Of a DNA stretch of 41,086 nt, positions 21,637-23,463 are shown in pieces; the stretch's first letter is position 1; each line of letters starts with the position of its first letter. The translations under genes were made by a program, and so were the position numbers. Source of the DNA: Akkermansia muciniphila (GTDB lineage Bacteria > Verrucomicrobiota > Verrucomicrobiia > Verrucomicrobiales > Akkermansiaceae); the NCBI GenBank assembly GCA_945862285.1, contig CAMAYN010000009.1:1-41086 (forward strand), written 5' to 3'. The notes beneath the pieces are model-generated. The model was not told where the DNA came from, ran no database searches, and was given only the letters and a program-made list of their open reading frames with translations.

Positions 21637-21661
21637 ACAGTTTCGATATATCAGCCCGAAA

Positions 21662-21730
21662 CGTCGTTATATCACTCCCCCCCTAAGCCCCATCACTCCC
21701 CCCTCCACAAATCCCCTTGATATAACGACG
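21662..21730. repeat. 13-bp perfect inverted repeat enclosing a C-tract loop
   Basis: CGTCGTTATATCA (21662-21674) and TGATATAACGACG (21718-21730); 43-nt loop with C-runs of 7, 4, 6 and 4. Confidence 0.85.
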
Positions 21731-21846
21731 ATTCGTAAAATATCTAAGAAAATCACTTGAAATTCCAACACAAATCCAAAACACTCCTCCCGTCATTCCC
21801 ATTTGATATAACATTCCGATGGGATACTAATTTAACTGTTAGCCAA

Positions 21847-22260
21847 ATGAAACTGTTGCAACACCTATTTGCGGGAGGCGTATACATACTGTTGGTAGCC
21901 TGTTCCGTCTGTGATGACAGGTGCTCATCGAGATGTCAGGAGTATTTCGATTCCCATCAGACTGCAAGGCAGGGAGGTGTCAAAGCGGAACAAGACATTA
22001 TCAACGAAGGATACAAGATCTACCGATACGACATGCCTCCTATTCGGACCGGAGCTTGGTCGAGATATTACGCCCGATACGAACACTTCGGGATCGAAGA
22101 ACTAGGGGGTGGCTTGACTGGAGTTCCAACACTTGAATTTATGAAGGCGTATAACAAAAAAATGGATTCCTCCCTGCGCTCAAGATACGGGGCAGAGTAT
22201 TTGAAGTATCGGTCATATCTCATCCCTGGGCCTAACGACCTACCCTGCAAATTTGACTAG
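21847..22260 (+). CDS. Cassette 1 ORF: hypothetical Cys-rich lipoprotein
   Basis: MKLLQHLFAGGVYILLVACSVCDDRCSSRCQEYFDS...; ATG is 8 nt inside the cassette boundary; stop lies 2 nt before R''. Confidence 0.75.
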   Translation: MKLLQHLFAGGVYILLVACSVCDDRCSSRCQEYFDSHQTARQGGVKAEQDIINEGYKIYRYDMPPIRTGAWSRYYARYEHFGIEELGGGLTGVPTLEFMKAYNKKMDSSLRSRYGAEYLKYRSYLIPGPNDLPCKFD

Positions 22261-22262
22261 AC

Positions 22263-22389
22263 GGCTAACAAGACGCATCATCCAACCACTAGGAGCCGTT
22301 CTGTTTCCATGACTTTCCGTAACTACAACATCAACCCCGTGATCAAAGTGCGCCCTCGCTCCTAGCGGTGGATGTGCTAGACGTTCTCT
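22263..22389 (+). repeat. attC site 1
   Basis: Starts GGCTAACAAGACGCATCATCCAACCACTAGGAGC, ends GCTCCTAGCGGTGGATGTGCTAGACG|TTCTCT; arms CTAGGAGC/GCTCCTAG perfect, extended stem with a bulged A. Confidence 0.85.
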
Positions 22390-22396
22390 CAAAGAA

Positions 22397-22879
22397 ATGA
22401 AGAGCCTTCCTCAAGCACCTAATTCGCTGACTCACGGCGAAGTCAGCTTGGTGTTCGACCGAATGACCGATGGCGATGAGACACGAGGATTTGTCCCGGG
22501 ATATCATTTCAAGATACTCAACAACAAGGCCGTCGAGGTTGGCCACCTGAATTTCAGAATTGGCGATACAGCTCATGTTAAGTATGCTGCTGGTCATATA
22601 GGCTATGAAGTTGCCGAGAATTTCAGAGGGCATGGATACGCTGCCGATGCATGTTTTGCACTGGCTCCATGGATAGCCCAGATTTCACCCGAGGTTCTTA
22701 TCACTGTTGATCCATCCAATACGCCAAGTATTCGGACTATTGAGCGCATTGGTGCGAGCTTCATAGATGAAGTGGATGTTCCTGAGGGCGATCCACATTT
22801 TCTAAGAGGATCTTTACGTAAGCGACGTTATCGCTGGAATCCAACAGAAAGAGAACAAGTCGCTCCATCCAACCGCTAG
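22397..22879 (+). CDS. Cassette 2 ORF: GNAT-family N-acetyltransferase
   Basis: NNKAVEVGHLNFRIG...AGHIGYEVAENFRGHGYAADACFALAPW...VDPSNTPSIRTIERIGASFIDEVDVPEGDP = GNAT fold motifs; C-terminus overlaps the start of attC2. Confidence 0.85.
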   Translation: MKSLPQAPNSLTHGEVSLVFDRMTDGDETRGFVPGYHFKILNNKAVEVGHLNFRIGDTAHVKYAAGHIGYEVAENFRGHGYAADACFALAPWIAQISPEVLITVDPSNTPSIRTIERIGASFIDEVDVPEGDPHFLRGSLRKRRYRWNPTEREQVAPSNR

Positions 22880-22983
22880 GAGCCGCCCAGTTTATATGTC
22901 TTTTCCTAACTATAACCTCAACCTCAACCCCGTGATCGACGCTCGCCCCCGCTGATAGGGTTGCGTGCTCTTTGACGTTCGAT
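22850..22983 (+). repeat. attC site 2
   Basis: Starts AGAGAACAAGTCGCTCCATCCAACCGCTAGGAGCCGCC, ends CGCTGATAGGGTTGCGTGCTCTTTGACG|TTCGAT; homologous to attC1. Confidence 0.85.
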
Positions 22984-22998
22984 AAAATATTCCAATCG

Positions 22999-23331
22999 AT
23001 GAACAAAGGCTTTTTTCAATACGGATTCGGTGCAAAAGAGCTAAACGATCCAAGATATGAAGAATACTTGTTGGCAGATCGCAACGGACTCCAGCACCTC
23101 AGATCAAAAATCGACGAAGTTTTAGATGGTGCGGATGAAGTTGCATTTGATTCGGAGGAGGTTTCCACAGAACTCGCAGGCATTAGAATAGCTGGTTGCT
23201 ATAACCCGCCCAAGATCAAATCCAGCGAGAGCAGTGTGCTAATTAACTTTGGTTGCATTGCCCTAGCGATAATAGCGCTAGGAGTCTTTATTCTTGGAGT
23301 ATGGAAGGTAGTTGAACTGGCATTAAGGTAA
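22999..23331 (+). CDS. Cassette 3 ORF: small protein with C-terminal TM helix
   Basis: MNKGFFQYGFGAKELNDPRYEEYLLADRNGL...VLINFGCIALAIIALGVFILGVWKVVELALR; the TTG start at 22972 is upstream of the predicted cassette boundary, so ATG 22999 is preferred. Confidence 0.7.
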   Translation: MNKGFFQYGFGAKELNDPRYEEYLLADRNGLQHLRSKIDEVLDGADEVAFDSEEVSTELAGIRIAGCYNPPKIKSSESSVLINFGCIALAIIALGVFILGVWKVVELALR

Positions 23332-23343
23332 TTCCAAGAAGAA

Positions 23344-23463
23344 ATCGAACAATCCGCATCATCCAACCACTAGGAGCCGCCCTGTTTCGATGATTTTCCC
23401 TGACTACAGCTCAAATCCGTGAACGACGCGCGCCCTCGCTCATTGTTCGGATCTTGGTTGTCT
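23344..23463 (+). repeat. attC site 3 (right boundary uncertain)
   Basis: Starts ATCGAACAATCCGCATCATCCAACCACTAGGAGCCGCC; loop and GCGCGCCCTCGCTC 3' arm shared with copies 1 and 2; terminal R' degenerate (GTTGTCT at 23457 or GTTCGGA at 23445). Confidence 0.75.

Follow-up and report, generated by a model that had tools for sequence, protein, structure and literature searches.

An integrase-less cassette array as a probable platform of a distributed integron in an Akkermansiaceae-like lineage

How does a row of gene cassettes come to stand on a chromosome with no integrase beside it? Integrons are generally viewed as having a single integrase that serves a single docking site in cis, which gives the first position and expression to one cassette at a time. 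The question is raised by the window, the whole stretch of DNA analysed here, which is the entire 41 kb contig C9 of a 3.65 Mb draft genome (279 contigs, 92.3% complete). The initial annotation had described it as a three-cassette integron array without a visible integrase on a Verrucomicrobia-like chromosome. Our comparison covers this genome and nine genus-mates (G001-G009), ten drafts in total, and the evidence for what follows is comparative sequence from draft genomes throughout. We conclude that the window array is probably an integron platform devoid of intI, consisting of an attI and three captured cassettes, and forming one node of a distributed integron.

The recombination sites were scored with a covariance model (R1) built from 11 well-formed attC copies of the own genome, and with an out-of-genome HMM whose 126 training copies exclude all own-genome sequences. 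The cassettes and their attC sites are as follows.

21839-22383, plus strand: cassette 1, R' GTTAGCC (21838-21844) pairing with R'' GGCTAAC (22263-22269) at 7 of 7 positions
21847-22260, plus strand: ORF of cassette 1, 137 aa, lipoprotein-like, no Pfam match
22263-22389, plus strand: attC1, well formed with extrahelical bases; R1 146.9 bits (an R1 training copy), out-of-genome HMM E 7.4e-36
22384-22977, plus strand: cassette 2, R' GTTCTCT pairing with R'' AGAGAAC at 7 of 7 positions
22397-22879, plus strand: ORF of cassette 2, 160 aa GNAT acetyltransferase (PF13302, E 8e-10), its 3' end overlapping attC2
22850-22983, plus strand: attC2, mosaic-looking; R1 103.4 bits (an R1 training copy), out-of-genome HMM E 1.6e-30
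22978-23445, plus strand: cassette 3, R' GTTCGAT pairing with R'' ATCGAAC at 7 of 7 positions
22999-23331, plus strand: ORF of cassette 3, 110 aa, a small membrane protein according to the initial annotation, no Pfam match
23344-23451, plus strand: attC3, degraded, L' arm missing; R1 62.7 bits, out-of-genome HMM E 9.4e-21

The window thus holds an integron cassette array, as had been proposed: attC sites lie between the ORFs in one orientation, and R' and R'' pair at 7/7 positions in all three cassettes. The six R-box heptamers reported earlier are all where they had been placed, complementarity counted from GTT stops after exactly 7 bp in every cassette, and the three repeats are indeed homologous, with 79% mean column identity when aligned. 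One boundary changes. Cassette 3, previously taken to end at ~23457, ends at about 23445 (R' is GTTCGGA, 23445-23451), since attC3 has no L' half. The covariance model that the initial annotation had called for scores the window sites far above background, and with the out-of-genome HMM 25 shuffled windows gave nothing below E 0.9. An Rfam scan of the array region returned no match above chance.

The repeats recur genome-wide, and they do so accompanied by R-box pairing and ORFs, an outcome in favour of the initial annotation. The attC core turns up 17 times in the own genome, spread over 13 contigs (reversed-pattern control, 0), and R1 finds 30 sites there and from 2 to 101 per genome across the nine genus-mates. 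The same core is present in Akkermansiaceae, Verrucomicrobiaceae, Luteolibacter and Prosthecobacter sequences, in agreement with the Verrucomicrobia-like chromosome named at the outset. Intervals bounded by consecutive attC sites in the fetched genus loci were treated as putative cassettes (n=100), and the four variable R positions pair fully in 45 of them, where 2000 shuffled re-pairings gave 5.8 on average and 17 at most; R'-R'' agreement at position 8 is at background level. Some of the non-pairing remainder probably hide an undetected attC of another type in between. Position 4 of the R box is C in 76 of the 100, so that the box here mostly begins with GTTC, in contrast to the published consensus GTTRRRY (PMC3518468). 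A cassette of G008 (L169, 736-1596) carries GATAGCC and GGCTATC, with the GTT altered on both sides and the R'-R'' pairing retained.

The three attC sites of the window differ in state. In the consensus stem derived from 11 copies, the unpaired positions on the L'' side are the usual extrahelical bases, and 4 of 19 pairs show compensatory double changes. This stem is formed by attC1, where it is predicted on both strands, with a bottom-strand total energy not significantly different from that of shuffles (z -1.4). In attC2, L' and L'' are mismatched and the hairpin is not formed (z -0.1 against shuffled sequence), and in attC3, which is without its L' half, the stem is likewise not formed (z -1.1). 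Since attC2 does not fold and attC3 lacks L', only attC1 looks fit for excision; cassette 1 is probably still excisable, and the other two are probably trapped in the array. The HMM match to attC3 stops at 23445, and its CGCTCATTGTTCGGA is, one substitution aside, the remnant expected from a deletion between two GCTC copies, by which L' was apparently lost. The sequence of attC2 joins a GGAGC-type L'' to the L' half of the GATAGGG..TGCTCTTTGAC type found in other attC sites. This mosaic of two genus attC types, with its hairpin lost, suggests homologous recombination between attC sites in their conserved middle.

The absence of a visible integrase extends well beyond the window. A search with the TIGR02249 profile (cut-off 265 bits) found no intI over the cut-off anywhere in the 3.65 Mb own draft; the best matches, at 86.6 and 76.5 bits, have the size and motifs of XerC/XerD-like proteins. 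Own contig C11 ends in a truncated tyrosine recombinase, which was weighed as a possible IntI fragment and rejected: its TIGR02249 score is only 23 bits, and it closely resembles a separate recombinase near the G004 integron. The own-genome IntI may have been lost, which would make the window array a fossil, or it may merely be missing from the draft, given its 92% completeness and 279 contigs. Four of the nine genus-mates have an intact IntI (G003, G004, G008 and G009), one has a short fragment and four have none. Intact intI is thus found at most once per genome, in 4 of the 10 genus genomes. The best genus IntI reaches up to 345 bits, and in a wider set 25 of 57 genomes have an IntI over the cut-off.

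What does precede the cassettes is an element absent from the initial annotation, which lies directly 5' of cassette 1 and whose end coincides exactly with the first G|TT.

21657-21735, plus strand: upstream part of the attI, with an inverted repeat, CGTCGTTATATCA (21662-21674) and TGATATAACGACG (21718-21730), and a variable spacer between its arms
21793-21840, plus strand: attI-like site, TGATATAAC...GGGATACTAATTTAACTGTT, terminating at the first G|TT crossover

The site in the window reads TTGATATAACATTCCGATGGGATACTAATTTAACT|GTT. An HMM trained on 19 attI sites from other species only matches it at 21793-21831 with E 1.8e-7; elsewhere in the window no match is better than E 0.054. Our sequence-only attI model (R2) gives it 41.5 bits, with the window site in the training set. 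The same element is common to many loci, lying 5' of the first cassette and ending precisely at the first GTT, and in all four intI-bearing genomes (G003, G004, G008 and G009) it lies between the divergent intI and the first GTT. Judged by sequence and position, the window array is headed by an attI. A scan of this attI for sigma-70 promoters found no consensus match.

The attI-like site belongs to a longer module. The inverted repeat of the window is exact, and the stretch folds at -12.4 kcal/mol (z -9.7). Many other attI loci in the genus have an equivalent repeat. In G009 and G001 the module runs from an inverted repeat, CGTTCGTATATCAG and CTGATATACGAACG, about 175 nt upstream to the GTT, and the spacer inside the repeat is variable. 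In most attI copies the conserved unit ends at this repeat, ~180 nt before G|TT. The depth of upstream homology varies among copies, however, up to ~520 bp before G|TT, and some copies reach into intI, taking in up to 55 codons from the start of the part searched. The repeat could provide IntI with additional binding sites, act as an operator for the intI promoter, or form a hairpin that insulates. Both in the window (21662-21730) and in the sister equivalents it shares a TGATAT motif with the attI repeat.

At an R2 cut-off of E 0.01, the ten genomes contain 77 attI sites, from 1 to 27 per genome: own genome 10, G001 5, G002 1, G003 9, G004 2, G005 10, G006 3, G007 3, G009 7, and G008 27, this last figure to be treated with care because G008 is an outsized 9.4 Mb bin that may be mixed. 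In a family sample outside the genus attI matches are few and weak, which indicates that the attI is lineage-specific. We examined 45 loci for intI and found four with an intact gene, two with an N-terminal piece and 39 with no trace, a few of the loci having less than 750 bases available upstream. In line with a role as docking sites, 25 of 45 attI copies have behind them a cassette with an R'' complementary to the attI-adjacent R' (shuffled R', mean 3.7, maximum 11). Among copies outside the training set the count is 10 of 24, several of the failures having less than 820 bases to the contig end. Similarity among copies is higher inside one genome (0.70) than across genomes (0.58). The attI at G009_C7 has 96% identity to the intI-linked copy at G009_C1 and 82% to its own orthologue at G001_C14a, the latter being about the level of the flanks. 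These figures point to homogenisation of attI copies within species, as would be expected if one IntI must recognise all of them.

Several further features of these loci were observed. The attI loci on own contigs C41 and C105 (L234, L235) are 85% identical over ~2-3 kb upstream and have tandem repeats close to the attI; they represent a paralogous duplication. At three contig ends of G001 (L216, L217, L218) the start of an IS110-like transposase directly follows the attC R'' ..GAACAAG, and the assembly breaks there; the element resembles insertion sequences known to target attC. In G009 an identical sequence of 146-148 bp stands at several array ends at contig ends (L210, L211, L215). It had no match in Rfam, which gave no confirmation of a group II intron.

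Present or past activity of orphan attI sites is indicated most strongly by a locus of two sister species. G009:C7 and G001:C14 share a left flank with 78-81% identity over ~7 kb, up to the attI plus 14 nt, and a right flank with ~81% identity over more than 6 kb, starting at +5197 and +5844; between the flanks lie 5.2 and 5.8 kb that are unrelated except for attC-like stretches. No intI was seen at either attI locus. The initial annotation had suggested comparing sister strains for cassette gain and loss at G|TT, and at this shared intI-less attI, which is not the window locus, sister species do differ in their cassettes, with homology ending within 14 nt. Comparison of seven G009 loci with five G001 loci gave one orthologous attI pair within the fetched stretches, so one such pair with different cassettes is shown here.

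Mobility of the module, with gain of an attI at a new place, is indicated at G009:C6. There the left-flank homology stops 234-323 nt before G|TT in most relatives, just outside the module, and the fetched stretches of these relatives contain no attI. The spacing from leuC to a lipid-kinase gene, ~5 kb at the attI array of G009:C6, is 24 kb in G001 and 47 kb in G005 (L214, L256, L257). Because the two sides of the array are so much further apart in other species, we place this attI array on a rearrangement breakpoint; a rearrangement accompanied the event, and what had been taken up as an empty-site test revealed that rearrangement instead. For the window itself, the PSCyt-DUF1501 block upstream of the array is conserved in all ten genomes, with homology ending at the DUF1501 stop in each, and the downstream flanks are not conserved in relatives; consequently no empty site is definable for the window attI. 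The window attI was not found behind this gene block in the sister genomes, with one exception: in G001 an attI lies ~3.9 kb beyond the DUF1501 gene on its downstream side. Homologues of the rhamnosidase gene that follows the window array occur in eight sister genomes, none of them with the window neighbours or an attC.

Taken together, we consider it likely, if with slightly less assurance than for the window itself, that a ~180-bp attI module has spread over the chromosome of this Akkermansiaceae-like lineage (Verrucomicrobiota), that up to ten or more platforms per genome, each in a genomic context of its own, are loaded and reshuffled by one IntI, and that the attI is mobile and evolves in concert. 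In the mechanism we propose, a single IntI made elsewhere in the genome would act in trans on all attI copies. Circular cassettes would be inserted at G|TT via the bottom-strand attC hairpin, each attI serving as a separate docking site. The module, comprising the inverted repeat, DR-like motifs and the core, would be copied to new loci, sometimes together with the 5' end of intI, and its copies would be homogenised within a species.

The most serious competitor is decay, the usual route by which a CALIN arises through loss: whole integrons would have been duplicated or gained repeatedly, each copy losing its intI and leaving an attI with static cassettes. We regard this as improbable, although intI fragments do occur at 2 of the 45 loci, as a decay model predicts (at G009_C13 the N-terminal 55 aa of IntI survive with 100% identity, and G001_C23 has a broken 5' end of the gene), and the depth of upstream homology varies from copy to copy. 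Decay is harder to reconcile with the 39 loci that lack any intI trace, with a conserved unit that mostly ends at the inverted repeat, with cassettes exchanged at an intI-less locus common to two species, and with attI copies homogenised within species.

Two other explanations are far less probable still. Off-target insertion by IntI at chance genomic sites (attG), known experimentally in E. coli (Loot et al. 2024, cited in PMC12444791), would disperse cassettes without any attI, and the own genome does contain attC sites ending in GAT rather than GTT (contigs C56, C119 and C243) and single cassettes with no attI-like sequence 5' of them, such as that on C53, all of them candidate natural attG insertions. 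Such insertion may account for loci like C53 and C56; at the window and at many other loci, by contrast, the 5' flank is a conserved attI-like element of 50-180 nt and not a chance GNT, so that for the window an attG-type origin, prompted by the GAT ends, is contradicted by the attI match. An artefact of assembly or binning, in which one large integron is split over contigs or strains or species are co-binned, is very unlikely for other reasons. CALINs are overestimated in draft genomes (PMC9024848), many arrays here are cut off by a contig end within repeats of 146-149 bp that they share, and 2225 bp of own contig C239 (L140), with two attC, are 100% identical to G006:C37 (L159) of a different species, which reflects either a contaminant contig or a very recent transfer. 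The window array, however, lies in the interior of its 41 kb contig, flanked on either side by ordinary chromosomal genes, the attI loci of G009 and G001 have differing left flanks of several kb, and contamination would not give attI copies that are more alike within than between genomes.

The arrays described here share with sedentary chromosomal integrons the R''-L''-L'-R' architecture of attC, the G|TT boundaries, the R'-R'' complementarity, an attI core with upstream repeats and an IntI from the same genus. They differ in having many attI copies away from intI, where usually a single attI lies close to the integrase (PMC9024848). With three attC and no intI adjoining its attI, the window array is a CALIN by the usual definition and not a complete integron, yet it is attI-headed and one of many per genome; CALINs are defined by attC only, whereas here a conserved attI that recurs genome-wide heads the array. 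Insertion at attG resembles this arrangement in that IntI scatters cassettes over the chromosome away from its own attI, but what is targeted here is a set of attI-like elements whose upstream parts are conserved, as opposed to chance sites. The Delta-attI-type cassettes of mobile integrons also place an attI outside its normal position, where it is functional with IntI1; there the attI, sometimes truncated, belongs to cassettes within one array (PMC12901181), whereas the modules described here head separate arrays chromosome-wide.

In the open-licence papers searched we found no description of multiple dispersed attI platforms. The attI is poorly described outside class 1 integrons and is not detected there by IntegronFinder (PMC9024848), so attI-headed layouts could be commoner than is known and be counted as CALINs. 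Three origins of CALINs have been published, namely off-target insertion, loss of intI and rearrangement (PMC8618304), and attI dispersal, which is not among them, would if true be a fourth. Many attI platforms served in trans would, if real, offer many simultaneous first positions in different chromosomal contexts, and whether CALINs are dead or alive becomes testable by comparing cassettes at orphan attI sites.
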